This document shows positions 1,330-18,595 of a DNA stretch of 33,056 nt, in pieces. Both the position numbers and the translations under genes were made by a program. Under the pieces are notes generated by a model. It searched no databases, was not told the origin of the DNA, and saw nothing but the letters and a program-made list of their open reading frames with translations. Origin of the DNA: Vicinamibacteria bacterium (GTDB lineage Bacteria; Acidobacteriota; Vicinamibacteria; Marinacidobacterales; SMYC01). Positions within the stretch are counted from its first letter, which is position 1. Each line of letters starts with the position of its first letter. The stretch spans positions 1 to 33,056 of the forward strand of contig DASPGQ010000382.1 in assembly GCA_035620555.1 (NCBI GenBank), given 5' to 3'.

Positions 1330-2214
1330 TTACCGTCGGGGATCGATGCCGAGCTCGGAGAGAAGCCGCCGGTTCTCACGCCAGTCGGCGCGGACTTTGA
1401 CGTGCAGTCCCAGGAAGACGCGGGTGCCGAGAAAGGCCTCGATGTCCTTCCGCGCCGCGGTGCCGATGTGCTTCAGCATCACCCCTCCCTTTCCCACGAG
1501 GATGCCCCGCTGGGAGGCGCGCTCCACGAGGATCGTGGCCTCGATCCGGGTCAGTTCGTTCCCTTCTTCCCAGGAGTCCACGAGCACCGCCGCGGCGTAG
1601 GGAACCTCGTTCCGGGTCGACTCCAGAACCTTCTCCCGCACGATCTCGGAAACGAAGAAGCGCTCGGGAAGATCGGTGAGGGCATCCGGGGGATAGAGCG
1701 GTTCGCCCTCGGCGAGGTGCGACGCCAGGACATCGACGAGCACGTCGACACCTTCGCCTTCGAGAGCCGAGCAGGGCACGATATCGACGAAGTCGTGCTC
1801 CGTCCGGTAGCTGTCGATGACGGGTAAGATGCGCGGCCGCGCGACGCGGTCGATCTTGTTGATGGCAAGAACGGCCGGTGTCTCGATGTCCCTCAGCTGT
1901 TCGAGCACGTAGGCATCGCCCCGTCCGAGAGGCTCGGTCACGTCGCAAACGAGCAGAATGACGTCGACCTGCTTCAGGCTCCGAAGGGCCGTCTCGACCA
2001 TCCTGCGATTCATCTCGTGATGAGGCTTGTGGATCCCCGGCGTGTCGAAGAAGACCATCTGGGCGCCGGGAAGATTGGCGATGGCCAGAACTCGATTCCG
2101 CGTCGTCTGGGGCTTCGCGGTGACGATGGCGACTTTTTGCCCCACGATGCGATTGAGGAGCGTCGATTTTCCGACGTTGGGGCGGCCGACGATGGTTATG
2201 AATCCCGATCGCAT
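1330..2214 (-). CDS. era: GTPase Era
   Basis: Era is a 16S rRNA-binding GTPase needed for maturation of the small ribosomal subunit. This copy is 294 aa, the usual length. The GTPase domain shows G1 GRPNVGKS near residue 10, G3 DTPG, G4 NKID and G5 SAL. The C-terminal KH domain has the GKGG loop (GILVGKGGVMLKHIG), which binds the 3' end of 16S rRNA. The start at 2214 (MRSGFITIVGRPNVGKS) is chosen over an upstream in-frame ATG because the longer version would run into the preceding gene and adds non-family sequence. It is the last gene of the phoH operon, 19 bp after the CBS-domain gene. That neighbourhood with ybeY and phoH is conserved in many bacteria and supports a shared job in rRNA processing. 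Confidence 0.97.
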   Translation of the reverse strand: MRSGFITIVGRPNVGKSTLLNRIVGQKVAIVTAKPQTTRNRVLAIANLPGAQMVFFDTPGIHKPHHEMNRRMVETALRSLKQVDVILLVCDVTEPLGRGDAYVLEQLRDIETPAVLAINKIDRVARPRILPVIDSYRTEHDFVDIVPCSALEGEGVDVLVDVLASHLAEGEPLYPPDALTDLPERFFVSEIVREKVLESTRNEVPYAAAVLVDSWEEGNELTRIEATILVERASQRGILVGKGGVMLKHIGTAARKDIEAFLGTRVFLGLHVKVRADWRENRRLLSELGIDPRR

Positions 2215-2233
2215 CAGAGGAGAGCGCTCGGTT

Positions 2234-3478: not shown

Positions 3479-3948
3479 CGGCGCGCCCTGGTTCGGGTCA
3501 GGAGGAATTTACGCCTCATCCGGTATTCGAGCCGGCGCATCTCTCCGCTATCGGACTCGTGGTCGTAGCCCAGCAGGTGAAGGAATCCGTGCAGAGTCAG
3601 AACCTGGAGTTGAAGCGCCAGAGTCGTGCCGCGCCTCTTCGCCTGGCGCTCGGCGGTATCGACCGAGACGACGATGTCCCCGAGATAGGGTGGCGGTGAC
3701 GGAAAGGACAGGACGTCGGTGGCCTCGTCGAAGCCGCGGAACCGCCGGTTGAGCTCCCGGATGCGCTCGTCGCCGACGAGCGCGAGGGTCGCGTCGGACT
3801 CGCAAGCGCCCAGCGACGACGCGACCTCGGCGAGGAATCCCGCCAATCGGCTTCGATCAATCGGATGACGCCTTTGCAGGTTCCGAACGACCAGCTCTGA
3901 CTCTCTCCCGCTCGCCCTTGGTGGGCCCCGGTCAGGATCGTCGTTCAT
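3475..3948 (-). CDS. ybeY: endoribonuclease YbeY
   Basis: YbeY is a metal-dependent RNase involved in 16S rRNA 3'-end maturation and 70S ribosome quality control. The 157-aa product carries the UPF0054 signature LxLHGFLHLLGYDHE, with the three zinc-binding histidines at 120, 124 and 130 (HxxxHxxxxxH). The upstream family elements ELNRRFRGFDEATDVLSFP and GDIVVSVD are also present. The 5' end begins 3 nt after the HD-hydrolase stop and the 3' end overlaps the next gene by 4 nt, so it sits firmly inside the phoH-era operon. The first ~12 residues are polar and not conserved, which is normal. Nothing looks degraded. Confidence 0.95.
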   Translation of the reverse strand: MNDDPDRGPPRASGRESELVVRNLQRRHPIDRSRLAGFLAEVASSLGACESDATLALVGDERIRELNRRFRGFDEATDVLSFPSPPPYLGDIVVSVDTAERQAKRRGTTLALQLQVLTLHGFLHLLGYDHESDSGEMRRLEYRMRRKFLLTRTRARR

Positions 3949-3951
3949 TTC

Positions 3952-6273
3952 TCATCGGCTGTTTTGAAGCACGACCGGCTCAACCTGTTTCTCGAAATCG
4001 AATCCGGGATAGCTCACGCGATGGTGGTGGATCCCCATCAGTACCCTGAGAAAGCTCTGCGCGATCTTCTCCAGATCACGCAACGTCAGGGCGCACTCGT
4101 TGAGTTGCCCGTCGAGGAAGACGTAATCGATGATCTGACGAATCAGTCCCTTGAGCCGCGCCGGGCTCGGATCATCGAGCGTTCGTGAGGCCGCCTCGAC
4201 CGCGTCCGCCAGCATGATGATGCCCGCTTCCTTGGTCTGGGGCTTCGGGCCGGGGTAGCGGTACTCCTCCTCCGTCACCGCGCCGAGCGCCGGATCCTGA
4301 TTTACCTTGGCTTTCTCGTAGAAGTAGGTAATGAGCTTCGTCCCGTGGTGCTGGGGGATGATGTCGATGATCTCCTGAGGAAGATTCATCTCCTTTGCCA
4401 TCTCGATGCCCTCTTTCACATGGCTGCCGATGATGAGGGCGCTCATGCGGGGGGAAAGATTGTCGTGCTTGTTCGGGCCGATCTGATTTTCCACGAAGTA
4501 ATTGATCTTCGTCAGCTTTCCGATGTCATGGTACATGGCGGCGGTTCTGCAGAAGACGGAGTTCGCACCAATCGACTCGGCAGCGGCTTCGGCGAGCGAA
4601 CCGACGACCATGCTGTGATGGTACGTTCCCGGCGCTTCGAGCGCTAGCCGCCTCAACACCGGAACGTTCTGATTGGAGAGCTCGAGCAGACGAATATCGG
4701 TCGTGCGATGGAACAGGAGCTCGAATGCGGGCAACAAGAAGGATACGACGACGGAAACACTGGCACCGCCGACGAACGCGCAGAAGAGATCGAAACTGAA
4801 GGTGCTGGGGGGGAAATACCGTCCGGTGAGCAAATCGATTGCCAGAACGGTCACGAAGTTGACGCTTCCCACCAGAAGCCCGAGCTTGAAGAGCGCGGTG
4901 CGCCGCTTGTATTGGAACAATCCCAGGATCGCGGCGAGACAGGACACCAGCGAGAAAATCGCGATCTGCAGATTGCCCGTCATGATTCCCAGCGCGACGC
5001 CGAAGATCACCGAAGCCAGGAGCGCGGTGGGAGTGTGCTCGAGCAATAGGACGAGCACGGCGACCGCGGCGAAGGGCACGGCGTAGAAATACGAGCTCGC
5101 GTTGTTGAACGGCACCATGATCATTTGCTCGGCGAACAAGCGGGCGACGAAGAAAGTCACCCGGGCGAAAGCGAGATGGCCCACCACGACGAGGCCCACC
5201 ATGGCGAAACTTTGACGCCGCCAGGCATCGCCGACGCGAACGGGCCGGAGAAGATACCACTGGACGAAGAGCAACACGCCGGCGAGAAGCGCCGCACCGA
5301 TCAGCCCGGCAAGGCCCCAATGGCTGGTCTCCTTGGCGAGGAACTCGAGCTGACGCAAAACGTTCGGAGTGATCTCGTCACCGGCCCGAACGATGGTCTT
5401 GCCGCGCCTCACGTGGAAGTAGACCGGATCCACCTCCTCGCGCGCTTGCGCGCGAAGTCTCTCGGTCTCGGCATAGTCGAATCGGAGGGTTGGCTCGATC
5501 AGGCGAGAACCGAGCTCGCTCAGCGCTCGCCATTCGGCTTGGCGCAGATCCGAAAGGCTCGCCATCTGCACTTGGAGCAGCTCGTGCGCCTCTTCGGTGG
5601 TCAGCACGTTCGAGAAGTCACGCCGGATCTGAGTCGTCTTGGCGACGTCCCTTCTCCTCCTTATCGGCCGACCCGAAGCCAGCAACCGCTCCTTGTTGCC
5701 AACGATGTCCCGCGCCAGGACGTTCGTCACCGCCCGGGTGAGGACCTGTTCGACCTCGATCGAGAACTCCTTGTCGAGAAGAAACTCGAGATCCTTCTCG
5801 CCTACCGTGACCCCGAGTCTCTCCCGGAGAACCCCCATAAGCTCCGCCAGGGCGCTCTCGAGCTCTTCGCCTTTCAACGATTCGAGCGCCGCCACCGAGG
5901 CGCGGCCTGCCTCGAACGCCGAGGCGATGCGGTTTCGGGCGTCGGTCGTCGCCGCGTCGTTGAAATGGTAGACCTCCAGGACGGCTTGGGCCGCTTCCTC
6001 TCGCCGCGCGGCCGTGGTGACCTCGTCCTCGTAGCTGAAATCATGAGGAGCGCGAACGGTCACGGTGGCGATTTGCCCGAGCTCGCTGGGCTGCACGCGA
6101 TAGATCAACCCCGGAGTGAGGAGCGCCGTAGTGGCGCCCAGGAAGAGGCCCACCCACGGCCACGGCGAAGAATAGGCGAGATCGAAGAAATCTCGCCGGC
6201 GAAAACCTTTTCGTCCGCGACGGGAGGTTTCCCGTTTCTCCTTCTTCGCCTTGGATCCGTTCTCGACGCTCAT
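3952..6273 (-). CDS. pgpH: 7TM-HD phosphohydrolase, PgpH/YqfF-like
   Basis: Proteins of this type (7TMR-HDED extracellular domain, 7TM region, cytoplasmic HD domain) hydrolyse c-di-AMP in the bacteria where they have been studied. From the ATG at 6273 (MSVENGSKAKKEKR) the protein is 773 aa. It has a basic cytoplasmic N-terminus, a first membrane helix near 38-58, and a long extracytoplasmic region to about residue 360. A bundle of hydrophobic helices follows (e.g. VLVLLLEHTPTALLASVIFG), then the HD domain containing APGTYHHSMVVGSLAEAAAE and the HD pair at H582-D583 (MYHDIGKL). A longer reading frame from 6396 is rejected because it overlaps phoH. The start lies just after the phoH stop (TGATATG). 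The c-di-AMP assignment comes from the family; no c-di-AMP cyclase is in the window. Confidence 0.93.
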   Translation of the reverse strand: MSVENGSKAKKEKRETSRRGRKGFRRRDFFDLAYSSPWPWVGLFLGATTALLTPGLIYRVQPSELGQIATVTVRAPHDFSYEDEVTTAARREEAAQAVLEVYHFNDAATTDARNRIASAFEAGRASVAALESLKGEELESALAELMGVLRERLGVTVGEKDLEFLLDKEFSIEVEQVLTRAVTNVLARDIVGNKERLLASGRPIRRRRDVAKTTQIRRDFSNVLTTEEAHELLQVQMASLSDLRQAEWRALSELGSRLIEPTLRFDYAETERLRAQAREEVDPVYFHVRRGKTIVRAGDEITPNVLRQLEFLAKETSHWGLAGLIGAALLAGVLLFVQWYLLRPVRVGDAWRRQSFAMVGLVVVGHLAFARVTFFVARLFAEQMIMVPFNNASSYFYAVPFAAVAVLVLLLEHTPTALLASVIFGVALGIMTGNLQIAIFSLVSCLAAILGLFQYKRRTALFKLGLLVGSVNFVTVLAIDLLTGRYFPPSTFSFDLFCAFVGGASVSVVVSFLLPAFELLFHRTTDIRLLELSNQNVPVLRRLALEAPGTYHHSMVVGSLAEAAAESIGANSVFCRTAAMYHDIGKLTKINYFVENQIGPNKHDNLSPRMSALIIGSHVKEGIEMAKEMNLPQEIIDIIPQHHGTKLITYFYEKAKVNQDPALGAVTEEEYRYPGPKPQTKEAGIIMLADAVEAASRTLDDPSPARLKGLIRQIIDYVFLDGQLNECALTLRDLEKIAQSFLRVLMGIHHHRVSYPGFDFEKQVEPVVLQNSR

Positions 6274-6274
6274 A

Positions 6275-7264
6275 TCAAGCCTCGACCTCGGTCCGTTCTT
6301 TTTCGCCGACGCTGACGCGCCGTGGTAGCTTTCGGCGCTCATAGGCCCGGATGATGGACTGTACCAGAGGGTGACGTACGACGTCGGTCTCGTCAAAATG
6401 AACGAACTCGATCCCCGAGATGTTCCCCAGCAGATCCATCGCTTCGACGAGCCCGCTCACTTTCCCGTGGGGAAGATCGATTTGGGTCACGTCTCCGGTC
6501 ACGACCGCCTTTGACCCGAACCCCATCCGGGTCAGGAACATCTTCATCTGTTCCGAGGTCGTGTTCTGCGCCTCGTCCATGATGACGAAGCTATCGTTCA
6601 GAGTGCGCCCTCGCATGAAAGCAATGGGAGCAATCTCGATGGCGCCCCGCTCGATGAGACGCACGACTTTCTCCGCATCCATCATGTCGTACAAAGCGTC
6701 GTAGAGCGGCCTCAGATAAGGGTTGATCTTCTCTTGGAGGTCACCGGGCAGGAAGCCGAGCTTTTCACCCGCCTCCACGGCGGGCCGGGCCAGAATGATG
6801 CGGTTGACCTTCTTCTCGTTGAAAGCAGCTACCGCCATCGCCACCGCGAGGTAGGTCTTTCCCGTTCCCGCGGGCCCGATGCCGAGCACCATGTCGTTCG
6901 ACTGAATCGCGCGGATATAAGAGAGCTGATGGACGCTTCTCGGCATCACTCGTTTCGTCTTCGATGGATGCAGTACGGCGTGCACGAAGAAATCTCTGAG
7001 CGAGACGTCGGGATCCTGCCGCAGAAGCCTCAAGGCGACTCGCAGGTCGCCAGCGGTGATGCGGTATCCGTCTTGGGACAGCTCGGAGAACTGATTGAAT
7101 ATGTTTTCGAGTTTGGCGATTTGTTTCTCGTCGCCGTCGACGATGAGCTGATCGCCCCGCGAGACGATCGAGACGCCGAGCCACTTCTCGACCGACTTCA
7201 GATTCTCGTCGTGAACGCCCAGAAGCGCCAGGGCGCCTTCCTCAGGGACGGAGATCTTCTTCAT
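6275..7264 (-). CDS. phoH: PhoH-family ATPase
   Basis: This 329-aa protein of the YbeZ/PhoH family is a P-loop ATPase related to RNA helicase cores and often linked with YbeY in rRNA processing. The N-terminal ~70 residues form a small KH-like region (GVHDENLKSVEKWLGVSI). The ATPase domain has Walker A GPAGTGKT at 130-137 and Walker B FVIMDEAQ with D230-E231, followed by GFGSKAVVTGDVTQIDLP. Length and motifs match the family. It is the first gene of the operon and starts about 128 nt downstream of a good promoter that overlaps the end of aspS. Symbol phoH is the usual name; ybeZ is equivalent here. Confidence 0.94.
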   Translation of the reverse strand: MKKISVPEEGALALLGVHDENLKSVEKWLGVSIVSRGDQLIVDGDEKQIAKLENIFNQFSELSQDGYRITAGDLRVALRLLRQDPDVSLRDFFVHAVLHPSKTKRVMPRSVHQLSYIRAIQSNDMVLGIGPAGTGKTYLAVAMAVAAFNEKKVNRIILARPAVEAGEKLGFLPGDLQEKINPYLRPLYDALYDMMDAEKVVRLIERGAIEIAPIAFMRGRTLNDSFVIMDEAQNTTSEQMKMFLTRMGFGSKAVVTGDVTQIDLPHGKVSGLVEAMDLLGNISGIEFVHFDETDVVRHPLVQSIIRAYERRKLPRRVSVGEKERTEVEA

Positions 7265-7427: not shown

Positions 7428-9214
7428 CTCGGCACGGGGCCGATCCGGTTTGGCTGCTTCAACGCGATTCCCAGCTCATCGAGCTGGCGCTCGGAGACCT
7501 CCGACGGGGAACCAGTCATCAGGTCCAGCGCCGAGGTCGTCTTGGGAAAGGCGATGACGTCCCGGAGGCTCGCGCCCCCCGCCGCGATCATGGCGATGCG
7601 GTCCACGCCCAGGGCGATCCCCCCGTGCGGAGGCGTACCATATTGAAGAGCTTCGAGGAAGAAGCCGAATTTCTCTCGAGCTTCCGACTCCGAAAGCCCG
7701 AGCGCGCGAAAGATACGCTCCTGCAGGTCGGCGCTATGAATCCGAATGCTTCCGCCGCCGAGCTCGTAACCGTTCGCCACGACGTCGTAAGCGAGGGAGC
7801 GAACCGAAGCCGGGTCACTTTCGAGCCGGTCCAGGTCGTCGGGATGAGGCGAGGTAAACGGGTGATGTCTCGCCTCGAGCCGGTCCTCGGCCGCAGAATA
7901 CTCGAAATACGGGAAATCGGTTACCCAGAGAAAGGCCGGTGTGGCGCCTTCCGGGATCCATCTCTCGCGTTTGGCGAGAACGGTGCGCATCGCCCCCAAA
8001 GCGGTGGATGCCACGTTTGCGTCGCCGGCAACGACCAGAAGGAGATCGCCCACGGCACCCCCGGCCAGAGCGAAAGCTTTCCTGAGAGTGTCATCACCCA
8101 GATGCTTCGCCAGCGGCGATTTCAGCTCGGTCTCGGTCCATTTCGCCCAGCCGAGACCCGCGGCACCGAGCTCCTTGATTTGCGAGTCGAGCTCGTCCAC
8201 CTCCTTCCGCGAGTATCGTGCCAGACCAGGGGCGACGAGGGCACGGACCGCTCCTCCTTCTTCCAGGATGCGGTCGAAGACTCCGTAGCCCGAGCCCCGG
8301 ACGAGCTCCGAGAGATCCCGGATGTCGCAGCCGAAGCGCAGGTCGGGCTTGTCGGTTCCGTAGCGGGCGATCGCCTCGGGATAGCCCAATCGGGGAAAAG
8401 GGGAGGGGAGCTCGATGCCGGTCGCGCGAAACATGGCGACGAAGAGGTCTTCCACCAGAGCGTAGATGTCCTCCCGGTCGATGAAAGACATCTCGATATC
8501 CACTTGAGTGAACTCCGGCTGGCGGTCGGCCCTCAAGTCCTCGTCACGAAAACAACGCACGATCTGGAAGTAGCGTTCCATGCCGGCAATCATCAGGAGC
8601 TGTTTGAACAGCTGGGGCGATTGCGGCAGCGCGTAGAAGGAGCCACGGTGCACCCGACTCGGTACGAGGTAATCCCGCGCTCCTTCCGGAGTCGATTTCG
8701 TCAAGTAGGGAGTCTCGACCTCGTGGAATCCCTTTTCCACCAGGTGGCGGCGCGTGGCGAAAGTAAGGCGGCTCCTGGTCTCGAGCCGTCTACGGACCGA
8801 GCCGCGTCTGAGGTCGAGGTAGCGGTACCGCAGCCTGAGGTCCTCGCTGGCTTTGACGTCGTCGTCGATCTCGAAAGGCGGGGTCTTGGAGGGAGAAAGC
8901 ACCTCGATTTCCGACGCCTTCACCTCGATCTCGCCGGTCGAGATATTGCGATTCACCGTGCCGGCGCTGCGCTCGATGACGGCGCCACGCACAGCAATCA
9001 CCCACTCGGACCCCACCCGTTTGGCCGCACCAACCACGCTTTCGCCCGCGTCGGGCCCCACGAGAATCTGGGTGACTCCCTCGCGGTCGCGAAGATCGAT
9101 GAAGGTGATGCCTCCCAGATCGCGAACGGTATCGACCCATCCCGCGAGGACGACCTCGGAGCCGACGGCGTCGCGTCCGAGCGCACCGCAGCTGTGGGTT
9201 CTCGTCCATTTCAT
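7424..9214 (-). CDS. aspS: aspartyl-tRNA synthetase
   Basis: AspRS charges tRNA-Asp with aspartate. The 596-aa length is that of the bacterial type. Domain order: an N-terminal OB-fold anticodon-binding domain (about 1-105, including GWVDTVRDLGGITFIDLRDR), then the class II catalytic core with motif 2 FRDEDLRADRQPEFTQVD, the bacterial GAD insertion (about 290-420), and motif 3 near the end (GIALGVDRI). The start at 9214 (MKWTRTHSCG) is chosen because it begins the family sequence and overlaps the carbonic anhydrase stop as ATGA. A longer in-frame version adds only arginine-rich shadow sequence. Whether the enzyme is discriminating or also makes Asp-tRNA-Asn cannot be decided here; no gatCAB genes are in the window. 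Confidence 0.97.
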   Translation of the reverse strand: MKWTRTHSCGALGRDAVGSEVVLAGWVDTVRDLGGITFIDLRDREGVTQILVGPDAGESVVGAAKRVGSEWVIAVRGAVIERSAGTVNRNISTGEIEVKASEIEVLSPSKTPPFEIDDDVKASEDLRLRYRYLDLRRGSVRRRLETRSRLTFATRRHLVEKGFHEVETPYLTKSTPEGARDYLVPSRVHRGSFYALPQSPQLFKQLLMIAGMERYFQIVRCFRDEDLRADRQPEFTQVDIEMSFIDREDIYALVEDLFVAMFRATGIELPSPFPRLGYPEAIARYGTDKPDLRFGCDIRDLSELVRGSGYGVFDRILEEGGAVRALVAPGLARYSRKEVDELDSQIKELGAAGLGWAKWTETELKSPLAKHLGDDTLRKAFALAGGAVGDLLLVVAGDANVASTALGAMRTVLAKRERWIPEGATPAFLWVTDFPYFEYSAAEDRLEARHHPFTSPHPDDLDRLESDPASVRSLAYDVVANGYELGGGSIRIHSADLQERIFRALGLSESEAREKFGFFLEALQYGTPPHGGIALGVDRIAMIAAGGASLRDVIAFPKTTSALDLMTGSPSEVSERQLDELGIALKQPNRIGPVPS

Positions 9215-9717
9215 CTGCGGTAGTCGTCCTTGAGCTCGCGGTACACGGCCGAGGCGCGCTCGAGCCGGTCGAGCTCCTCGTTGGAAAGAGCCCGAACAAT
9301 GCGCGCGGGAGCGCCGAGTGCGAGCTTGCCCGCCGGGACCACGGTCCCCGGGCTTACCAACGAGCCGGCCGCCACGAGCGCCCGCTCTTCGACGACGACG
9401 CCGTCGAGAAGAAGAGCGCCCATGCCGATCAGCGAGCCGGACTTCACATGGCACCCATGGAGGATGGCCCGATGGCCGATGGTTACGTCGTCCTCCAGGA
9501 TGGTTGGGCTCTCCCCGTGATTGACGTGTATGACCGTCAAGTCCTGCACGTTCGTTCGTGCCCCGATGCGGATGATGTTGACGTCGCCCCGAACGACGGC
9601 ACCGAACCAGATGCTGGAGTCGGCACCGACGGTGACGTCGCCGATCACGTGAGCGCTCTCGGCGACGAAAGCGGTGTCGTGTACGGCAGGACTCTTGTCG
9701 CGATAGCGGTGGATCAA
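9211..9717 (-). CDS. gamma-type carbonic anhydrase-like hexapeptide protein
   Basis: This is a 168-aa left-handed beta-helix protein of the gamma carbonic anhydrase/YrdA/PaaY family. Hexapeptide repeats cover about residues 10-140 (HVIGDVTVGADSSIWFGAVV). Metal-binding histidines are visible in VIHVNHGES and VTIGHRAILHGC. A short C-terminal helix (ELDRLERASAVYRELKDDYR) completes the usual architecture. The start is a TTG at 9717 inside the stop of the preceding gene (TCTTGA), with AAGGTGG about 4-5 nt upstream. The upstream part of the longer open frame is arginine-rich and overlaps the protease gene. Members may be true carbonic anhydrases or acyltransferase-like proteins without that activity. 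Confidence 0.9.
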   Translation of the reverse strand: MIHRYRDKSPAVHDTAFVAESAHVIGDVTVGADSSIWFGAVVRGDVNIIRIGARTNVQDLTVIHVNHGESPTILEDDVTIGHRAILHGCHVKSGSLIGMGALLLDGVVVEERALVAAGSLVSPGTVVPAGKLALGAPARIVRALSNEELDRLERASAVYRELKDDYRR

Positions 9718-10586
9718 GATTCCACCTTTACCAGCCAGATTCGATCCCGGGCGAAATCGTAGGTAATGGCCGAGGAGAGCAGCAGATCCGCTCCGAGAAC
9801 GCCTACCGGCTGACCGTCGTAGGGAAGCTCGTTCATGACGCCGAGCAGGACGCGAAACCCTTGGGCCTCGAAGCTTCCGATCTGCATTCTCTCGATGGTC
9901 GCGCTCGTCGCGTCTTTGGCGGCGAGACCCACGTCCGTGGCCCATTTCCGATCGATAACGGTATTCGACGTTCCCGCATCCACGACGAAGAGCACCTCCT
10001 CCACCGCTTCGCCCTCGGTGGTCAACAGAACCGGCACCATGAGAAACCGCCCCGCGGACTCGAAGGCGACCCCTCCCTCCGGCACCTCGTCATCGGGAGA
10101 GGCCTCGAGATAGAGGAGCCTCCGGGGGTAATGAATCGTGAGACGAAGCGGTTCGAGGAGCTCCCGGCCGATCCGACCGTAGCTCCGGATTCCGCCGATG
10201 CCGGTCCCATCCTCTCCTTCGACGAGCAAAGTGCGGACGCCCTGAAACTCGACCGCGCCGATCTGGAGCTGCTGGAGGTAGGCAACCGACACTTTTTCCT
10301 TCTGGCCGTAGAAATCGATCTCGGCCACCTCCCCTTTGTCGACGAGCTTCAGACCGCTTCCGTCGACGATCGTCGTATCCAGGACGAAGTCGTTGAACCC
10401 CGCATCCAGAACGAGACGGTGGCCTCCCGAACCGTTGAGCCGAGCCCGGACGATTGGAAGAGCGGACTGGTCGATGGTCTCGAACGAAAGCCACCTCTCT
10501 TCCCCGGAGGCGACGTGACTCTCGCGGCTGACGGAGCTCCCAACCACGACAAGGCCTGCGGCGATCCAGCGCCGGAATCGTTTCAT
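9714..10586 (-). CDS. exported retropepsin-like aspartic protease homologue
   Basis: This 290-aa protein has an N-terminal signal sequence (MKRFRRWIAAGLVVVGSSVS) and two retropepsin-type lobes. The first contains HRLVLDAGFNDFVLD with Asp61. The second contains LFVVDAGTSNTVIDRKWA with Asp203. Later GVLGADLLLSSAITYDFARD is the usual closing segment of bacterial retropepsin-like domains. Both active-site triads read Asp-Ala-Gly instead of the commoner Asp-Thr/Ser-Gly. The start at 10586 is chosen over 10616 because GAGGAAA lies upstream of it and it begins a clean signal peptide. It overlaps the carbonic anhydrase start by 4 nt. The substrate is unknown, and the Ala in both triads leaves activity uncertain. 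Confidence 0.8.
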   Translation of the reverse strand: MKRFRRWIAAGLVVVGSSVSRESHVASGEERWLSFETIDQSALPIVRARLNGSGGHRLVLDAGFNDFVLDTTIVDGSGLKLVDKGEVAEIDFYGQKEKVSVAYLQQLQIGAVEFQGVRTLLVEGEDGTGIGGIRSYGRIGRELLEPLRLTIHYPRRLLYLEASPDDEVPEGGVAFESAGRFLMVPVLLTTEGEAVEEVLFVVDAGTSNTVIDRKWATDVGLAAKDATSATIERMQIGSFEAQGFRVLLGVMNELPYDGQPVGVLGADLLLSSAITYDFARDRIWLVKVES

Positions 10587-10643
10587 GGCTTTCCTCGCGT
10601 TTCGGAACGATAGCAAATTTGGTGGCGGAATGCTGCTTCGAGC

Positions 10644-11612
10644 TCAGAAGTCTTCGGGAACGGGAAGTTCGTTGGCGATCGAGACGCCGCGGACGATGGC
10701 CGTCTCCACGAGTCGCGCCGCCACGCTCCCGACGATGTTGACATCCACGGCTTGAGTGGGTCTTCCCAGGGTCGACAGGGCGAAGACCACGTCGCCGTCG
10801 AACATCGTATGCGAGGGTCGAACCACGCGGGGGATGCCGTCCTGGGCCATCATCGCGATCTTCGTGATCTGCTCGCGCGTGAACGCACCGTCGGTGGCGA
10901 CGACGCACAGAGTCGTGTCCATCCCGAAATACCGGGTCGCGAGCTCGGTCTGACCGAAGATATAGGACTCGGTATCGAGGAAGCGTTCGGGATCGTCGGG
11001 CTGTCTCGCTCCGGCGAGGATTTGACCGGTTCTCGGATCGACGACGTCTCCCCAGGCGTTGCAGACGGCGAGGGCTCCCACCGTGACCCCGTTCGCGAGC
11101 CGCACCGAGGCCGTCCCCAACCCTCCACGCATGGCCGAGTCGCTTCCGAGGACCTTGCCAACCGTCGCCCCGATACCGGCCCCCACTCGCCCCTCGGGCG
11201 AGGCGTCCTCGGTCGCTCCTTCGCTCGCGGCGAGACCCATGTCGCGGTCGGGGTAGATCCGCGGCTTTCCCACGTCGAGATCGAAGATAACCGCCGTGGG
11301 CACGATGGGGACGATCACTCCGGTCGAGGCCGTGAACCCGATGTCACGTTCTTGCAGGAACTGCTGGACCCCTCCCGCCGCGTTGAGGCCGAACGTGCTT
11401 CCCCCGGTGAGCAGCACCGCGTGGATTCTCATGACCATGTTGGTCGGATTCAGCATCTCCGTCTCCCGCATTCCCGGGGCGGAGCCGCCGATATCGAGGC
11501 CGGCGATGGCGCCCCGCTCGACGAGAATCACGGTGCAACCCGTATGACCCACCGTGCTCACCGCGTGACCCACGCGGATTCCGGGAACGTCAGTGATGCA
11601 GTGCTTCAGCAT
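10644..11612 (-). CDS. P1-family (DmpA/NylC-like, S58) N-terminal nucleophile peptidase
   Basis: This 322-aa protein starts MLKHCITDVPGIRVGH. It shows the family sequence throughout: GCTVILVERGAIAGLDIGGSAPG, HAVLLTGGSTFGLNAAGG and a later SHTMFDGDVVFALST. Enzymes of this group are made as one chain and cleave themselves to expose a Ser or Thr nucleophile. They act as aminopeptidases, D-esterases or nylon-oligomer hydrolases. The likely self-cleavage site is at residues 232-234 in GMDTTLCVVATDG, where the residue before the Thr is Asp instead of the Asn I would expect. A GTG at 11639 would add nine residues; the ATG at 11612 begins the conserved part. It is the first gene of the run leading to aspS, 57 bp ahead of the protease homologue. 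Confidence 0.9.
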   Translation of the reverse strand: MLKHCITDVPGIRVGHAVSTVGHTGCTVILVERGAIAGLDIGGSAPGMRETEMLNPTNMVMRIHAVLLTGGSTFGLNAAGGVQQFLQERDIGFTASTGVIVPIVPTAVIFDLDVGKPRIYPDRDMGLAASEGATEDASPEGRVGAGIGATVGKVLGSDSAMRGGLGTASVRLANGVTVGALAVCNAWGDVVDPRTGQILAGARQPDDPERFLDTESYIFGQTELATRYFGMDTTLCVVATDGAFTREQITKIAMMAQDGIPRVVRPSHTMFDGDVVFALSTLGRPTQAVDVNIVGSVAARLVETAIVRGVSIANELPVPEDF

Positions 11613-11694
11613 GGTCGCCTCGCCGCCTCGCGTGCCCACAATGTTGCCAAATGAGCCGGCTATTTTCCAAAGGTTAGGAACTCGCCTCGAGCTC

Positions 11695-11830
11695 CGCTCG
11701 ATCTCGCATTTTTTTTCGGGTTCGAAGCAAATTTTTTTCTACATGTAAGGATAAAGACGCGAGAGCTTGCAAAATTAATTCGTCCACGATACATTCTTGT
11801 ATTGACTCTACTCCGTGAACATCGACGTAA
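11695..11830 (+). promoter_or_regulatory. AT-rich divergent promoter region between the P1 peptidase and asnB
   Basis: Between the divergent starts at 11612 and 11876 lies a clearly AT-richer stretch with T8 and T7 tracts near 11710 and 11737. For asnB, TTGCAA (11767-11772) and TACATT (11790-11795) are spaced by 17 bp. A second TTGACT at 11802 has no good -10. The region presumably serves both transcripts; the exact elements are only suggestive. Confidence 0.35.
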
Positions 11831-11875
11831 GAGGCGCGCCCGAACAAGCACGATCGCGTTTGGGGCCGATGAGGT

Positions 11876-13414
11876 ATGTGCGGAATCGTAGGGATGTTCG
11901 GGGACGAGCACCCCGACACGTTGAAGCGAATGCTGGACGCGACCTCCCATCGCGGGGAGGACAGCACCCGATACGAGTTCTGGGACGGCCGCTGCGGTCT
12001 CGGCATCAACCGTCTCAGCATCATGGATCTCGAGCGCGGCGAGCAGCCGATTCACGACGAGAGTCACGACGTCCAGGTCGTCTGTAACGGGGAGATCTAC
12101 AACCACTCGGCCCTCGTGGGCGATCTGCGTGATCGACACGACTTTTGCACCCGCAGCGACGTCGAAGTCATCGCTCATCTCTACGAGGACCATGGCGCGG
12201 ACTGCGTCAACTTTCTCGATGGGATGTTCGCATTTCTCGTCTACGACCGCCGACGCAAGACATTCCTGGCCGCGCGAGATCCCCTGGGGATCAAGCCGTT
12301 CTACTACGCTCGCGACGGCCACCGATGGTATTTCGCTTCGGAGGCGAAGGGGATTCTCGAGACCGGTGTGGATCCTGCCTGGATCCGGATGCTGCCTCCC
12401 GGTTTCCGTCTGACGCCCGAGCGGGGTCCGGAGCAGTATTTCTATCTGGCCACCCACAAATCGATCCCCAACCCGGGGATGGTTCGCGAGCTTCTCGCAC
12501 ATGCCGTGGAAAAGCGCATGATGGCGGACGTGGAGGTCGGAACGTTCCTTTCGGGAGGAGTCGACTCGAGCCTGGTCACCGCCATTACCGCCGGACTGAA
12601 ACCCGACGTGAAAGCGTTCACCGTCGGCGTCGAGGGGGCGCCCGATGTCGAGGCGGCGAAAATCGTCTCCCGACATCTGGGAATCCGGCATTACGTACGG
12701 GCATTCGAGGTCGACGAGCTGGTCGATCTTCTCGGCGAGACCATCTGGCACGTCGAGAGCTACAACCCATCCATGGTGACCGGCTCGGTGGTGACTCTGA
12801 TGGCCGCCAAACTGGCCAAGGAAGAAGGCGTGAAGGTCGTTCTTTGCGGCGAAGGGAGCGACGAGATCTTCGGCGGATATCTCGCGCTGCGCGAGCTCGA
12901 GTTCCAGGACTTGCATGATGCCTCGTGGCGCTTGATCGAGAATCTCCACAAGACAGAGCTCCAACGGCTGGATCGCATGAGCATGGCAGTCTCTCTGGAA
13001 GCCCGCGTGCCCTTCCTCGATCGGGATCTCGTCGAGTACGCTCTCAACCTGCCGGCGTCGGCGAAGATAAAGAACGTCGACGGTCGGAAGATCGAGAAGT
13101 GGATTCTCAGAGAGGCCTTCGACGGCATCATCCCGAGTGAGATTCTATGGCGGGAGAAACTCCCATTCGATCAGGGCAGCGGCGCTCGGGCCTTGATTGC
13201 CTATGCGGAGAGCCAGGTCAGCGACGACGAGCTTCGCGAAGCTCGGGAGCGGTGGCCCGACGCGGGCATCGTCTCGAAGGAGATGCTCTTCTACTACAAC
13301 ATCTGGCGCGAGCACTTTGGCGAGATGGGGGGCCACAGGCGTTTCGATCTCTTCGGTGATTATCCCGGGATGATGGATCGCATCGAGACTCGCACGGCAA
13401 CGAGCGGGAGCTAG
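11876..13414 (+). CDS. asnB: glutamine-dependent asparagine synthetase
   Basis: AsnB converts aspartate, ATP and glutamine to asparagine. The 512-aa protein has the class II glutaminase domain with nucleophile Cys2 (MCGIVGMFGD) and NGEIYNH at 71-77, then DPLGIKPFYY. The synthetase domain has the PP-loop SGGVDSS at 226-232, GEGSDEIFGGY and SLEARVPFLD. The C-terminus follows the E. coli AsnB pattern (QVSDDELREARxRxP) but stops about 40 residues earlier. The usual glutaminase motif HRGPD reads HRGED here (residues 25-29). It heads a plus-strand run with an Fn3-like/TM protein, a symporter and a microprotein, all with short gaps, so it may supply or use a solute moved by that symporter. A GAGG lies very close to the ATG. 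Confidence 0.93.
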   Translation: MCGIVGMFGDEHPDTLKRMLDATSHRGEDSTRYEFWDGRCGLGINRLSIMDLERGEQPIHDESHDVQVVCNGEIYNHSALVGDLRDRHDFCTRSDVEVIAHLYEDHGADCVNFLDGMFAFLVYDRRRKTFLAARDPLGIKPFYYARDGHRWYFASEAKGILETGVDPAWIRMLPPGFRLTPERGPEQYFYLATHKSIPNPGMVRELLAHAVEKRMMADVEVGTFLSGGVDSSLVTAITAGLKPDVKAFTVGVEGAPDVEAAKIVSRHLGIRHYVRAFEVDELVDLLGETIWHVESYNPSMVTGSVVTLMAAKLAKEEGVKVVLCGEGSDEIFGGYLALRELEFQDLHDASWRLIENLHKTELQRLDRMSMAVSLEARVPFLDRDLVEYALNLPASAKIKNVDGRKIEKWILREAFDGIIPSEILWREKLPFDQGSGARALIAYAESQVSDDELREARERWPDAGIVSKEMLFYYNIWREHFGEMGGHRRFDLFGDYPGMMDRIETRTATSGS

Positions 13415-13419
13415 ATCGA

Positions 13420-13797
13420 GTGCCACCGAGCCTCCATTGTCCGGGCTCGACGAGCGACACGGGCGCATACCGGATTGCCTGGAGTGGCACCGACGGGACC
13501 GTCGTTCGTGTCGAGGAGAACGGGTCGGTCCTCTATGAGGGCGTGCAGGACGCGACCACGGTGAGCGGACGCCCCGCGGGCGACTACGTCTACCGCCTGG
13601 GATTGATGGAAGGGGGGAACGTCGCCTGGAACGACTCGTGCACCGTCACCGTGGCACCGCCGTCTCTTGCTCTGGCGGGCTTTCTTTTCGCCGTCGGATT
13701 CTCCGTTTTCGCTTCCTTGCTGGTCGTCGTCGTTCGCGGACACCGTGCGCATCGCAGCGGAGAGCTGTATGGCCGCCCTCACGACACCAGCCATTGA
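13420..13797 (+). CDS. small single-pass membrane protein with an Fn3-like beta domain
   Basis: This 125-aa product starts at GTG 13420, 5 nt after asnB, with GGGAG about 9 nt upstream. No earlier start is available because an in-frame stop lies at 13357. Residues ~10-78 look like one beta-sandwich repeat (YRIAWSGTDGTVVRVEENG, then AGDYVYRLGLMEGGNVAW) and resemble a fibronectin type III domain. Two cysteines (CPGS and NDSC) bracket it and could pair. Residues ~80-106 form one membrane helix (LALAGFLFAVGFSVFASLLV) followed by a basic tail (RGHRAHR), so the beta domain should face outside. There is no cleavable signal peptide. It lies between asnB and the symporter and may be an accessory of the transporter. 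I do not recognise a named family. Confidence 0.65.
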   Translation: MPPSLHCPGSTSDTGAYRIAWSGTDGTVVRVEENGSVLYEGVQDATTVSGRPAGDYVYRLGLMEGGNVAWNDSCTVTVAPPSLALAGFLFAVGFSVFASLLVVVVRGHRAHRSGELYGRPHDTSH

Positions 13798-13807
13798 TCA
13801 TTGATCG

Positions 13808-15244
13808 ATGACGGCACCGGTCCTTTCGGCAGAGCTGGGCTGGCTCGTCATCGGCATTTTCTCGATCGTCTGGATTGCGCTGGGCTGGTTCTGGGGTCGT
13901 CACAGCACGTCCTTCGATGACGACGTCCTCGCCGGGCGGAACGTGGGCCTCGCGCTCGGCACCGCCACCGCCGTGGCTACCTGGGTGACGTCCAACACCA
14001 CCATGGCGGCCCCGCAGCTCGCTTATCAACTCGGCATCTGGGGCATGGTGGGCTACTCTCTCGGCGCGGTCGGGCTGATGATGTTCGCTCCCCTCGCGGA
14101 GCGCATCAAGGAAGTCATGCCGGGTGGGTACACGAGCGGTGACTTCGTTCGCGTCCGTTACGGTCGCGCCAACTGGGGGATCTTTCTTCTCATCTCGTTC
14201 TTCTACGGTGTTGGCTGGCTCGTCAGCATGGGAATGGCGGGCGGCATCCTGCTCGAAGCTCTGACCGGCATCCCCTATCACGTGGGAATGGTCGTCATCG
14301 TGGTCGTCTGCGTCGGCTACACGCTCCTGGGCGGACTACATGCCGTCATTGGAACCGACTTCGTGCAGAGCGTCCTGATCCTCCTTGGACTGGTCGTGGT
14401 CGGAGCCGTCTTGTTGACGACCATCACCCCCGCGGAGATCCACGCGGCGCTGAGCGCCGACCGGCCGCAGCTCCTGACGATCTTGATGCCGGCATCGATC
14501 ATGTTCTTGTTCAACAACCTGCTCTTCGGGCTCGGGGAAATCTTCCACTCCAACGTGTGGTGGTCGAGAGCGCTGGCGTTTCGGCAAGGCACGGGCTTTC
14601 GCTCTTATCTCGTCGGCGGCCTCATGTGGCTTCCGGTACCGGTGGCCGCGGGCGGCATCGCGCTCGCCGTGCCCGCCCTCGGAGTCAACGTCCCCGCTCT
14701 GGACATGGTGGGCCCTCTGGTGGTGGGAGAGCTCATGGGGGCGGCGGGTGCGCTACTGATCCTCATCATCGTCTTCTCGTCACTCGCTTCGTCTCTCGAC
14801 TCCCTGCTGGCGGCGACGAGCGATCTTCTGGTCGAAGACGTCTACCGCCAGTTGCTGAGACCGTGGGCCACCGAACTCGAGCTCCGGCGCATGGCGCGGC
14901 TCATCGTGCTGGGTCTCGGTGCGCTGGCCATCGTGCTGTGCTGGGGCCGGATCACCACGCTGGCCGAGCTCATTCAGTTCACCGGAGCTTTCGTCGCTTC
15001 GACCATCTGGCCCATCGTGGCCGGACTCTACTGGAGCACGACCAATCGCTTCGCCGTCGGACTCGCGTTGAGCCTCGGTTCGCTCGCGGGCTTGACCGCT
15101 TACTTCACCATCGGCTTCTACACCGCGGCGCTCGTGGGCGCGTCGGTGTCGATGGTCTGCGTCTCGGTCGGGACCTGGATTCGACCCGAGCCGTTCGATT
15201 GGAGTCACCTTACGGCCATGCGGCGAGCGGGAGAGACCCCGTGA
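13808..15244 (+). CDS. SSS-family sodium:solute symporter
   Basis: This 478-aa polytopic inner-membrane transporter has about 13 hydrophobic helices. Family marks are LAGRNVGLALGTATAVATWV after the first helix, the SSS signature GGLHAVIGTDFVQS at about 175-188, and the sodium-site helix FSSLASSLDSLLAATSDLL at about 323-341 with its Ser/Ser/Asp residues. It resembles the urea/Dur3-like side of the family (AGRN motif, and a C-terminal EPFDWSHL), but the substrate cannot be fixed from sequence. It starts 10 nt after the Fn3-like gene. Its last codon overlaps the start of a 39-aa membrane microprotein (GTGA). Linkage to asnB suggests an amino acid, amide or related nitrogen compound as cargo; this is an inference. 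Confidence 0.9.
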   Translation: MTAPVLSAELGWLVIGIFSIVWIALGWFWGRHSTSFDDDVLAGRNVGLALGTATAVATWVTSNTTMAAPQLAYQLGIWGMVGYSLGAVGLMMFAPLAERIKEVMPGGYTSGDFVRVRYGRANWGIFLLISFFYGVGWLVSMGMAGGILLEALTGIPYHVGMVVIVVVCVGYTLLGGLHAVIGTDFVQSVLILLGLVVVGAVLLTTITPAEIHAALSADRPQLLTILMPASIMFLFNNLLFGLGEIFHSNVWWSRALAFRQGTGFRSYLVGGLMWLPVPVAAGGIALAVPALGVNVPALDMVGPLVVGELMGAAGALLILIIVFSSLASSLDSLLAATSDLLVEDVYRQLLRPWATELELRRMARLIVLGLGALAIVLCWGRITTLAELIQFTGAFVASTIWPIVAGLYWSTTNRFAVGLALSLGSLAGLTAYFTIGFYTAALVGASVSMVCVSVGTWIRPEPFDWSHLTAMRRAGETP

Positions 15245-15360
15245 TCTCGGTTACCGTCTTCGCTTGGGGTCTCTGGACCGCCTACATCGTGGTGGCCGCG
15301 GGCGCGCTCTACTTGCTCGCGGTGCTCGCTCGCGAGTGGTGGGGGGGAAAGCTCTGGTAG
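15241..15360 (+). CDS. 39-aa membrane microprotein coupled to the symporter
   Basis: A GTG at 15241 overlaps the symporter stop as GTGA and opens a 39-codon frame ending at TAG 15358-15360. The product has one hydrophobic helix (FAWGLWTAYIVVAAGALYLL) and a tryptophan-rich end (REWWGGKLW). Several transporters of the SSS and NSS classes are known to have tiny one-helix partner proteins encoded immediately downstream. The 4-nt overlap, coding-like composition and position make this a real gene in my view, although it is short enough to be missed by most gene callers. I do not recognise the family. Confidence 0.7.
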   Translation: MISVTVFAWGLWTAYIVVAAGALYLLAVLAREWWGGKLW

Positions 15361-15388: not shown

Positions 15389-15925
15389 CTAGGACTCCTC
15401 GCCCTCCTCTTGCCCGGTGAGAAAATCGGCGGTCTCCTCCGCCGACACACCAACAGGACCCGATACGAGGACGGGTGAGGCCTCGATGTCCTGGGCGCGC
15501 ATCATCTCCGCGACCCTCTGGAGCGTTGACAGGATCTGCGTCTGCTCCCAGTCCGCGAGCCTTTGGAGCTCCTTGACGAAGCGCTCCTGGAGCAACGGAG
15601 GCGCTTTCTCGAGAGCATCCCGACCGGCGGCGGTCAGCTCGTTGATGACGCGACGCTTGTCCGCCTTGCTACGGCGTCGTTCGATGAGGTTTTTCCTTTC
15701 CAGCCGCTCGAGGATGTCGGACAGAGTTGCCTGCCCCAAAGACACTCCCCGGGCGAGCTGACTCGTCGTTTGCGGCCCGTGCTGCTCGATGAACTGCAGC
15801 ACGACGAGCTGGGGTCCGGTGAGACCGTACCTCTGGGCGAGAAACTTCGAGTGCCGATCCACGGCGCGGATGATCCGTCGCAAGGCAGCGATGATTTCGT
15901 CGCGGGTATCGAAGCTCCCGTTCAC
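15389..15925 (-). CDS. MarR-family transcriptional regulator
   Basis: This 178-aa winged-helix protein belongs to the MarR family. The HTH region is about residues 45-105: LVVLQFIEQHGPQTTSQLAR, GQATLSDILERLERKNLIER and the wing RRRSKADKRRVINELTAAGR. N- and C-terminal helices would form the dimer. The C-terminal ~30 residues (VLVSGPVGVSAEETADFLTG) are an extension beyond the usual ~145 aa. The start is a GTG at 15925 with a weak TAAGG upstream. It converges on the asnB-symporter cluster, separated by only 28 bp. A 15-bp imperfect palindrome just ahead of its start may be its own operator. The inducer and regulon are unknown. Confidence 0.9.
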   Translation of the reverse strand: MNGSFDTRDEIIAALRRIIRAVDRHSKFLAQRYGLTGPQLVVLQFIEQHGPQTTSQLARGVSLGQATLSDILERLERKNLIERRRSKADKRRVINELTAAGRDALEKAPPLLQERFVKELQRLADWEQTQILSTLQRVAEMMRAQDIEASPVLVSGPVGVSAEETADFLTGQEEGEES

Positions 15926-16085: not shown

Positions 16086-16114
16086 CAGGGTGGGCTGATT
16101 TTTTGATCACCCTG
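16086..16114. other. stem-loop directly after the 72-aa gene
   Basis: CAGGGTG (16086-16092) pairs with CACCCTG (16108-16114) around a loop containing T6/A6. An alternative TGAT/ATCA pairing is possible inside. On the minus strand it follows the stop of the small gene at once, so it may end or protect that transcript, but it lacks a trailing T-run. Confidence 0.35.
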
Positions 16115-16333
16115 CTATTGCTCGCAGGTGGACTCGGGCTCGTGAAACCAGCCGTTCTCGTGGAGCGTGCGCGTGCTGGGGCCGACTCGATCGCTCGAGC
16201 CATTCGGCTCGCGATGCTGAAGCACGGATGGACCCGGTACGAGCCAACGATTGACGAGGTAGCGCCAGTAAAAGCAACGCCAATGGAGCTCTTCCGCTTC
16301 GGACCACTCTGCTTTGTGAATCGTGTGTGCCAT
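16115..16333 (-). CDS. putative 72-aa protein of unknown function
   Basis: An ATG at 16333 has a strong Shine-Dalgarno sequence (GGAGG, 7 nt upstream) and opens a 72-codon frame. The product begins MAHTIHKAEWSEAEELHWRC and contains an aromatic, basic patch FYWRYLVNRWLVPGP, then a polar tail ending WFHEPESTCEQ. It has no signal peptide or membrane helix, and I recognise no family. A stem-loop follows its stop directly. Start signal, length and terminal hairpin argue for a gene. Against it, the surrounding 600 bp is otherwise non-coding and the opposite strand is also open here. Confidence 0.4.
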   Translation of the reverse strand: MAHTIHKAEWSEAEELHWRCFYWRYLVNRWLVPGPSVLQHREPNGSSDRVGPSTRTLHENGWFHEPESTCEQ

Positions 16334-16457
16334 CGTGGGTCCTCCGTCTTTCGTGTCTCTCGATGGTGCAATGGGCGTGCCACGATGTTTCGGCGAACCC
16401 GAGTCCGTAACTTGCCAGATGCGAAGAAGTTGAGACCCCTGGGGAAAGCTCCCCTCC

Positions 16458-16483
16458 AAAACGCGTAGTAAAAAGCCTACGCG
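16458..16483 (-). terminator. intrinsic terminator after fadJ
   Basis: On the minus strand, CGCGTAG (16483 to 16477) and CTACGCG (16468 to 16462) form a 7-bp stem with an 8-nt loop. TTTT follows (16461-16458). It lies 37 bp beyond the fadJ stop. The short T-run makes it a modest terminator. Confidence 0.5.
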
Positions 16484-16519
16484 GTGATGGGACACTCCCA
16501 GTCCTCGTGAACCGGTTCG

Positions 16520-18595
16520 CTAGGCGGTGCGAGCTCGCTCGAGGAGAGACGCAGGAGGCTCGAACCGAGATCCTTCTTTGTCGCGCCACTGGGCCAGATC
16601 GTCGGCAACGCGATCGATCCCGTAGGTTTCGGCATATCGAAGGAGCCCGCCGCGAAACGGTGGAAACCCGGTGCCCAGAATCATCGCGAGGTCCAGCTCG
16701 TCGCCGCTCGCCACCACTTCCTCGTCCAGGCACCGATAGGCCTCGGCGATCATGAGACCGAGAGCGCGCCGGAGCGCCTCGTCCGCTCGGAGCGGTCTCG
16801 ACGACGACGCTCCGAGGATCGAGCAGACCTCTGGATCGGGCACCGCGCGTCTGCCGTCGTATCGATAGAACCCGGCGCCCGTCTTCTTCCCGAGCCGTTT
16901 CACGGCAACGAGCTTCTCCAGAACTCCCGTCGGCCGGGCACGAGTACCGAACGCCTTGCCGAGCACCGCACCCGCCTTGTACGCGACATCGATTCCGACA
17001 TCATCGAGGAGCCTCAGCGGCCCCATCGGCATTCCGAACTCGAGGAAGGCTCGGTCGATCCCCTCGATATCGGCCGTCTCCAGGAGAAGCTTGGTCGCCT
17101 CGTTGAGGTACGGAGCGAGAATACGGTTCACGACGAAACCCGGCGCGTCGTTCACGACTACGGGCGTCTTACCGAGACGCTGGGCCATCCAGACGAGTTT
17201 TGTTACGACCCTCTCGTCGGTCCTCTGTCCGCGGACCACTTCGATGAGCGGCATGCGGTCTACCGGATTGAAGAAATGAAAGCCCGCCATCCGCTCGGGA
17301 TGCTCGAGCACCGTCTGCATCTCGCTGACGGAAAGAGTGGAGGTGTTCGTCACAATGAGACACTCGCTCGACACATGGGCTTCGAGCTCGCGAAGCACCG
17401 ATTTCTTGATGTCGATGTCTTCGACGATCGCCTCGATGACCAGATCGGCGACGCCGAACCCGCTCCAGTCGAGAGTGGGGGTGATGAGCCCCATCTTCTT
17501 CTCGAGCTCCCAGCTGCTCAGGCGCCGTCGCTTGCGCCGCTGCTCGAAGACGGCTCGCGCCGCAGCGAGACCCGCCCCCAGCGCCTCGGGGCTTACGTCC
17601 TTCAAACGAACGGCAACGTCCCGGGAAGCGAGAAGCCTGGCGATACCGCCCCCCATGGTCCCGGCGCCGAGAAGCCCCGCGGATTCGACCCGCGGCGGCT
17701 CGCCCTCGGGAGTCCCCTTCGCCCGGTCCGCGAGAAAGAAAACCCGCACGAGGTTCTTCGAGACCTCACCGGGAAGGAGCCGGCTGGCGTGCTCCCGCTC
17801 CAGCTCGAGCGAGCGAGCTCTGGACCTCGACCCCCGGCGCATCACGTCGAGAGCCGCTAGGGGCGCGGGGTAGTGCCCCTTCGTCTTCTCGAGCACCCGC
17901 TTGCCGGCCTGCCAGAAGAGAAACCAACGGCCGATCGGGTTACCCTCGAGGAGGAAGGACCTCCGCGGCCGCCGAGGTCTCCGGCCTTGGATCAGCTGGT
18001 CGAGGAGCTCGAGGGCACGCCGGTCGAGCTCCGGGTGGGAGACCGCGCGGTCGACGAGACCAATGCGCTCGGCTTTCCCCGCATCGATGGCGCGCCCGGT
18101 GAGGATCAGGTCCATCGCCTGGCGAATTCCGATGAGTCGCGGAAGGCGTGTCGTGCCGCCCCATGCTGGCAGGATGCCGAGGTTCACTTCGGGAAAACCG
18201 ATCTGGAATCTGGGGTGGTCCGAGCCCACGCGGCCGTGACACGCGAGGGCCAGCTCGGCGCCCCCTCCGAGGCACATGCCCCCGATCGCGGCAACGACGG
18301 GGAAGTCCAGCATCTCGATGCGATCCATGATGGCCTGCCCCGTCCGGACCGCCTCCGCCGTTTCCTCACCAGTCTGGACCGTCCGGATCTCGTTGACGTC
18401 CGCGCCCGCGATGAAAACTCCGTCCTTTCCCGATCGAACGACCGCCCCCCGGACGTCCCGCGCCTCGAGCTCCTTCAGGACCTCGCTGAGCCGCTCCATT
18501 ACCGCACGGGAAAGCAAATTGACTTTCTGTCCGGGCAAATCGAAGGTGATGCGCGCGATCCCGTCCTGGAGGTCGAGCTCGACCGGTGAGTCCAT
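16520..18595 (-). CDS. fadJ: 3-hydroxyacyl-CoA dehydrogenase / enoyl-CoA hydratase (FadJ/FadB type)
   Basis: This is the multifunctional alpha subunit of beta-oxidation. The 691-aa protein has an N-terminal enoyl-CoA hydratase/isomerase domain (about 1-185). It carries the oxyanion and acid residues in GGMCLGGGAELALACHGR and GFPEVNLGILPAWGGTTRLP. The NAD-binding domain begins near residue 305 with GLLGAGTMGGGIA. The dehydrogenase catalytic region contains AGFHFFNPVDRMPLIEVV, and two C-terminal helical domains follow (e.g. PGFVVNRILAPYLNEA). Length is close to E. coli FadJ (about 714). The thiolase partner (FadI/FadA) is not in the window. It is transcribed away from the TonB-family gene, with only 72 bp between the two starts, so they share a promoter region. 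fadB or fadN would be equally acceptable names. Confidence 0.92.
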   Translation of the reverse strand: MDSPVELDLQDGIARITFDLPGQKVNLLSRAVMERLSEVLKELEARDVRGAVVRSGKDGVFIAGADVNEIRTVQTGEETAEAVRTGQAIMDRIEMLDFPVVAAIGGMCLGGGAELALACHGRVGSDHPRFQIGFPEVNLGILPAWGGTTRLPRLIGIRQAMDLILTGRAIDAGKAERIGLVDRAVSHPELDRRALELLDQLIQGRRPRRPRRSFLLEGNPIGRWFLFWQAGKRVLEKTKGHYPAPLAALDVMRRGSRSRARSLELEREHASRLLPGEVSKNLVRVFFLADRAKGTPEGEPPRVESAGLLGAGTMGGGIARLLASRDVAVRLKDVSPEALGAGLAAARAVFEQRRKRRRLSSWELEKKMGLITPTLDWSGFGVADLVIEAIVEDIDIKKSVLRELEAHVSSECLIVTNTSTLSVSEMQTVLEHPERMAGFHFFNPVDRMPLIEVVRGQRTDERVVTKLVWMAQRLGKTPVVVNDAPGFVVNRILAPYLNEATKLLLETADIEGIDRAFLEFGMPMGPLRLLDDVGIDVAYKAGAVLGKAFGTRARPTGVLEKLVAVKRLGKKTGAGFYRYDGRRAVPDPEVCSILGASSSRPLRADEALRRALGLMIAEAYRCLDEEVVASGDELDLAMILGTGFPPFRGGLLRYAETYGIDRVADDLAQWRDKEGSRFEPPASLLERARTA

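Follow-up and report, generated by a model that had tools for sequence, protein, structure and literature searches.

In contig DASPGQ010000382.1 of a Vicinamibacteria bacterium (assembly GCA_035620555.1; positions 1 to 33,056, the whole stretch being called the window here), a gene for an AsnB-like glutamine amidotransferase is followed by genes for a small Fn3-like membrane protein (fn3), a sodium:solute symporter (SSS) and a 39-aa microprotein (micro). This region is tentatively read as a MarR-linked operon through which a neutral compatible solute with an amide cap is taken up and turned over; the solute may be carbamoyl-glutamine-amide (CGA) or a close relative of it. The symporter, the Fn3-like transmembrane (TM) protein and the 39-aa protein would form a sodium-coupled three-protein importer, the AsnB with its changed acceptor site would make the amide, and a divergently encoded S58-family N-terminal-nucleophile (Ntn) hydrolase would cleave it. 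An earlier, sequence-only reading of the stretch had proposed a dedicated uptake-and-conversion pathway for an amino acid, amide or osmolyte; this is supported in outline and is narrowed here to a neutral amide solute, with a putative identity for the exact compound.

Much of the argument comes from the relatives of the symporter, which are many (54–66 % identity) in halophilic and marine bacteria. Gene content was tabulated in 80 symporter loci, 62 of which have enough flanking sequence. The symporter is accompanied by the 39-aa gene in 79 of the 80 loci, and an fn3 protein was recognised in 69. A transcarbamylase-family protein (OTC) and a 676-aa AsnB-like amidotransferase (ASNh) are linked in 54 of the 62 well-flanked loci, with an M20 amidohydrolase also present in 49 and an isochorismatase-family hydrolase (ISO) in 38. 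OTC is missing from eight of the well-flanked loci, of which seven are from Ectothiorhodospira, Thioalkalivibrio and Thiorhodospira and one (L035) is like the window. In those seven genomes an OTC orthologue (61–63 % identity) is found elsewhere, adjoining ASNh, ISO and M20 in all but Thiorhodospira. The symporter therefore does not group with transporters whose operons lack asnB, a grouping that the sequence-only reading had named as a refutation; an AsnB-like amidotransferase is carried by its relatives' operons, and of the seven unlinked loci just named six or more come from genomes that have the synthesis genes elsewhere. In Thiorhodospira sibirica the symporter (L041, 5905–7422) has neither the fn3 nor the 39-aa partner, and no ASNh, ISO or M20 was recognised in the stretches read around the OTC orthologue (L127/L137), the rest of the genome not having been checked for ASNh; the system in this species looks to be decaying or rearranged.

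OTC aligns with aspartate carbamoyltransferase (ATCase). In the latter, aspartate is anchored through its side-chain carboxylate by Arg229 and Gln231 and through its alpha-carboxylate by Arg167 and Lys84 (PMC4581275). All 76 distinct OTC orthologues keep the STRTR carbamoyl-phosphate motif and the equivalents of Lys84 and Arg167, and in none of them is there an arginine at the position of Arg229 in the RxQxER motif (240s loop), which is Ala, Ser or Thr. OTC thus lacks this motif of an aspartate carbamoyltransferase and, because Arg229 is lost and Arg167 and Lys84 are kept, its acceptor is expected to be an alpha-amino acid whose side chain bears no carboxylate. M20 comes closest to N-carbamoyl-L-amino-acid hydrolase and to the N-carbamyl-L-glutamate amidohydrolase ErtE, under the cut-off of the latter model, and ISO most resembles cysteine hydrolases of biuret-hydrolase type. 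From gene content combined with these residues and relatives, we infer that the wider operon holds the genes for CGA synthesis, uptake and breakdown. OTC would turn glutamine into N-carbamoylglutamine, ASNh would make the 1-amide of this product, and SSS would take up the solute; in breakdown, ISO would deamidate and M20 would decarbamoylate it.

CGA is a salt-protection solute known since 1991 and reported from Ectothiorhodospira (Ect.) marismortui (PMC1224877; PMC3857566), of which the type strain, DSM 4180, is the record FOUO (PMC8877833). Both clusters, M20-ISO-OTC-ASNh (L126) and fn3-SSS-micro (L066), are present in this strain (loci L066, L093 and L126). The enzymes of the related operon are of just the kinds that CGA needs, whereas the window variant is without a carbamoyltransferase. 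No gene assignment for CGA was found in the open literature searched; the subscription literature lay outside this search, and an earlier assignment is possible. In Thiodiazotropha-type genomes a BCCT (betaine-type) transporter is convergent to the candidate CGA operon (L011, 10708–12300, minus strand; also L012 and L017), which is in keeping with osmoregulation.

The window symporter scores 97.5 bits against PF00474 (gathering 22.8). It was rejected as a proline, pantothenate or acetate symporter, its scores being far under the NCBIfam cut-offs for PutP (93 against 515 bits), PanF (64 against 328) and ActP (20 against 1099). Of the proteins with solved structures, DUR3 urea symporters lie closest (E 7e-33), with choline and glucose transporters far behind, and CGA is itself a ureido compound. 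It differs from DUR3 in length (478 aa against about 700), in having two small partners and in operon context. Of 154 positions conserved at ≥95 % across the family, the window symporter keeps all but eight (about 95 %), and only two positions separate the four window-type symporters described below from the family. With so few conserved differences, the window symporter should carry the solute of the wider family or one close to it.

The two small partners were also described in the sequence-only reading, and both descriptions stand. The 125-aa protein is predicted (pLDDT 92.5, 55 sequences) to fold as a sandwich of seven strands with a single long helix after it, and Foldseek matched the model to Fn3 and Ig domains in the PDB, including the chitinase Fn3 domain 1k85; neither this protein above cut-off nor the 39-aa protein matched a Pfam or NCBIfam family. 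The 39-aa microprotein is a real gene, given a counterpart open reading frame (ORF) at the same place in 79 of the 80 related loci, and in 43 of them there is a 4-nt overlap with the symporter stop. Members of the family are mostly 39–42 aa, and all have Trp as the last residue and Asp eight residues from the end, the window copy having Glu at that Asp position (EWWGGKLW). SSS symporters are also co-encoded with a small membrane protein in YjcH-ActP and YhdT-PanF; here, the partner is 39–42 aa with one helix and a DWKxGxLW end, and there is a separate Fn3-like/TM protein besides.

The amidotransferase encoded by asnB belongs to the AsnB family, as its label implied, but is unlikely to be an asparagine synthetase of the ordinary kind. 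It resembles E. coli asparagine synthetase B (1ct9; alignment E 2e-80) in its two-domain architecture, Cys2 nucleophile, PP-loop SGGVDSS and GEGSDE, and it passes TIGR01536, asparagine synthase (glutamine-hydrolyzing), with 409.9 bits against a cut-off of 267.1. It falls under the Asparagine synthase B equivalog NF006949 (463.1 against 499 bits), and differs from the E. coli enzyme in the acceptor-site stretch, where the canonical ETYDVTTIRAS is ESYNPSMVTGS. All four window-type genomes have ESYNPS(M/L)VTG(S/A), so that the canonical T-T-x-R has become S-M-x-T (S-L-x-T in L035). In human ASNS, the change T336I, at the first Thr of T-T-x-R, almost abolishes activity (PMC6748925). Because this stretch is replaced, and given the effect of T336I, the window AsnB is likely to amidate another carboxylate. 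A more distant homologue, L139, retains the Arg of T-T-x-R and is located apart from the module, and was rejected as a further window-type AsnB.

In the operon for N-acetylglutaminylglutamine amide (NAGGN), an osmolyte is likewise amide-capped by an AsnB-family amidotransferase (AsnO-like, TIGR03104), with a hydrolase linked. The window module was rejected as a NAGGN operon; its AsnB is far below TIGR03104 (241.6 against 570.1 bits), there is no adjoining acetyltransferase or ligase gene, and it has its own transporter and partners.

The S58 protein scores 159.7 bits against PF03576 (gathering 23.9), and its relatives in the PDB, a polyamide hydrolase and ThnT, are both amide-cleaving. With a putative amide maker (AsnB) and a putative amide breaker (S58) next to its transporter, the window module mirrors the ASNh and ISO pair of the related operons. 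The same set was found in three other metagenome-derived genomes, the planctomycete L035 (Planctomycetota) and L033 and L049 (Kiritimatiellae), in which the S58 genes are 60–73 % identical to that of the window and linked to the same symporter type. The four genomes are not close kin, and the module is thus conserved in three phyla. Gene order had been put forward as a check, and it is conserved: L035 has AsnB-fn3-SSS-micro, as in the window, and its S58 gene lies on the opposite strand. In L033 and L049 a contig ends with AsnB-fn3-S58(start) and the symporter contig opens with the S58 remainder, then SSS-micro; the likely order, across an assumed contig join, is AsnB-fn3-S58-SSS-micro. An AsnB orthologue (53–58 % identity) is present in all three of these genomes, and no window-type AsnB orthologue was found in three checked SSS-bearing genomes of the other type. 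The four plus-strand genes and their gaps of 5, 10 and -4 nt are as first read, as is a MarR gene on the other strand 28 bp away; the limit set at asnB does not hold, as the S58 gene also belongs to the module. The MarR protein (PF01047, 57.3 bits against gathering 24.6) has 43–59 % identity to MarR proteins encoded beside about a dozen related operons, and would presumably control the operon. Searches of the S58/asnB region for a consensus promoter and a palindromic operator gave nothing clear.

The module was probably not inherited vertically within the class, since none of the other 192 of its 193 genomes has a symporter orthologue at E≤1e-40. In a sample of 396 genomes from the phylum, the symporter was found in three at E≤1e-60 and AsnB in the window genome only at E≤1e-110. 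Because both genes are so scarce in class and phylum, horizontal acquisition is the simplest inference. Searches of a plasmid collection with AsnB and with OTC returned no matches. A genome of the same phylum (G230) has a 48 % identical symporter with no partner genes nearby (L124, 7779–9242, minus strand), possibly the nearest outgroup transporter.

Several observations weigh against a CGA-like solute in the window. Of the genes of the candidate CGA operon, the window has those for the symporter, fn3 and the 39-aa protein, but the genome has no OTC orthologue, only 31–32 % matches in the E 1e-20 range, and no match to the isochorismatase-type amidase ISO; the proposed route to CGA is therefore closed to this genome, and its solute may differ. 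S58 enzymes frequently take substrates with a free amine, and CGA is not of this kind. The window-type symporters lie on deep branches of the tree, and their grouping as a single clade is neither rejected nor demonstrated by it (approximately unbiased test, p 0.504). The window fn3 protein has neither the signal peptide found in relatives nor the conserved HH motif of the family, which may be true divergence or a base-level assembly error. It is possible, if rather doubtful, that the window module makes and recycles a different, undescribed amide solute without carbamoylation, the transporter having been kept as the product resembles CGA. The lack of an OTC orthologue extends to L033, L035 and L049, S58 stands in place of ISO, and the non-canonical ESYNPSxVTG is kept in the four genomes, all of which would fit; yet the symporter departs from the CGA-type family at so few conserved positions that an identical or closely similar substrate is suggested.

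The same genes could also serve nitrogen scavenging, by importing a ureido or amide nitrogen source from which the hydrolases release ammonia under substrate-induced MarR control. This is unlikely. Most related operons do have two hydrolases, the closest solved symporters are urea transporters, and four M20 amidohydrolases of N-carbamoylase/allantoate type are encoded elsewhere in the window genome (39–42 % identity to the operon M20), but scavenging has no need for the linked OTC and ATP-using amidotransferase, or for the AsnB present in every S58-type genome, and many hosts are halophiles, one of them a known CGA accumulator. An ordinary asparagine synthetase beside an amino-acid symporter is very improbable: the general TIGR01536 match and the E. 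coli alignment are outweighed by the missed equivalog cut-off, by the replacement of T-T-x-R, whose Arg even the distant L139 keeps, and by the poor transporter scores. That these are chance neighbours without shared function can hardly be entertained. The genes are missing from the class and from most of the phylum, so vertical conservation is unusable, but the same genes stand together in other phyla, tightly spaced and with one overlap of 4 nt, and this conserved linkage refutes the idea. A neutral amide-capped solute, CGA or similar, is accordingly kept as the working reading of the window, and the features on which it is based are listed below.

Features of the window module and its immediate surroundings.
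Feature	Position	Strand	Details
S58-family (DmpA/ThnT/nylon-hydrolase-like) N-terminal-nucleophile amidohydrolase	10644–11639	-	PF03576; divergent from asnB
Intergenic region, S58/asnB divergent, AT-rich	11640–11875	.	Likely regulatory; from sequence
AsnB-like glutamine amidotransferase	11876–13414	+	512 aa; PF00733/GATase_7 above Pfam cut-off
Fn3-like beta-sandwich and one C-terminal TM helix	13420–13797	+	125 aa; predicted structure, Foldseek
SSS-family sodium:solute symporter	13808–15244	+	478 aa; PF00474
39-aa one-helix microprotein	15241–15360	+	C-terminus EWWGGKLW (family DWKxGxLW); 4-nt overlap with symporter stop
MarR-family regulator	15389–15925	-	PF01047; 28 bp from 39-aa gene

Elsewhere in the window, an Era-like GTPase, a CorC-like protein, YbeY, a 7TM-HD phosphohydrolase and PhoH are encoded in a row (1330–7264, minus strand), an ordinary conserved bacterial cluster. 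Also on the minus strand are ORFs for a retropepsin-like aspartyl protease with a signal-like N-terminus (9714–10616) and for a hexapeptide-repeat (gamma-carbonic-anhydrase-like) protein (9211–9945); as these two overlap, the start of the second is probably further in. At 16107–16733 (minus strand) the longest ORF has no Pfam family, and an overlapping ORF at 16115–16495 (minus strand) contains a possible small gene that starts MAHTIHKAEWSEAEELHW.

Candidate genes can be named in Ect. marismortui DSM 4180, a type strain in culture, and in genera that grow easily, such as Pseudidiomarina and Kangiella, so that the CGA question is directly testable. The fn3 and 39-aa proteins would each be a new family of symporter partners, OTC suggests a new carbamoyltransferase specificity, and the window type suggests that a second form of the system, free of carbamoylation, exists in three other phyla. 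A bolder proposal, and one that is held with considerable doubt, would combine these: the wider operon would be a CGA pathway spread over several phyla, with a glutamine-specific OTC and a three-protein SSS importer, and the window operon its carbamoylation-free sister, making, importing and recycling a still undescribed amide osmolyte by means of an AsnB of new specificity and an amidase of the S58 family.

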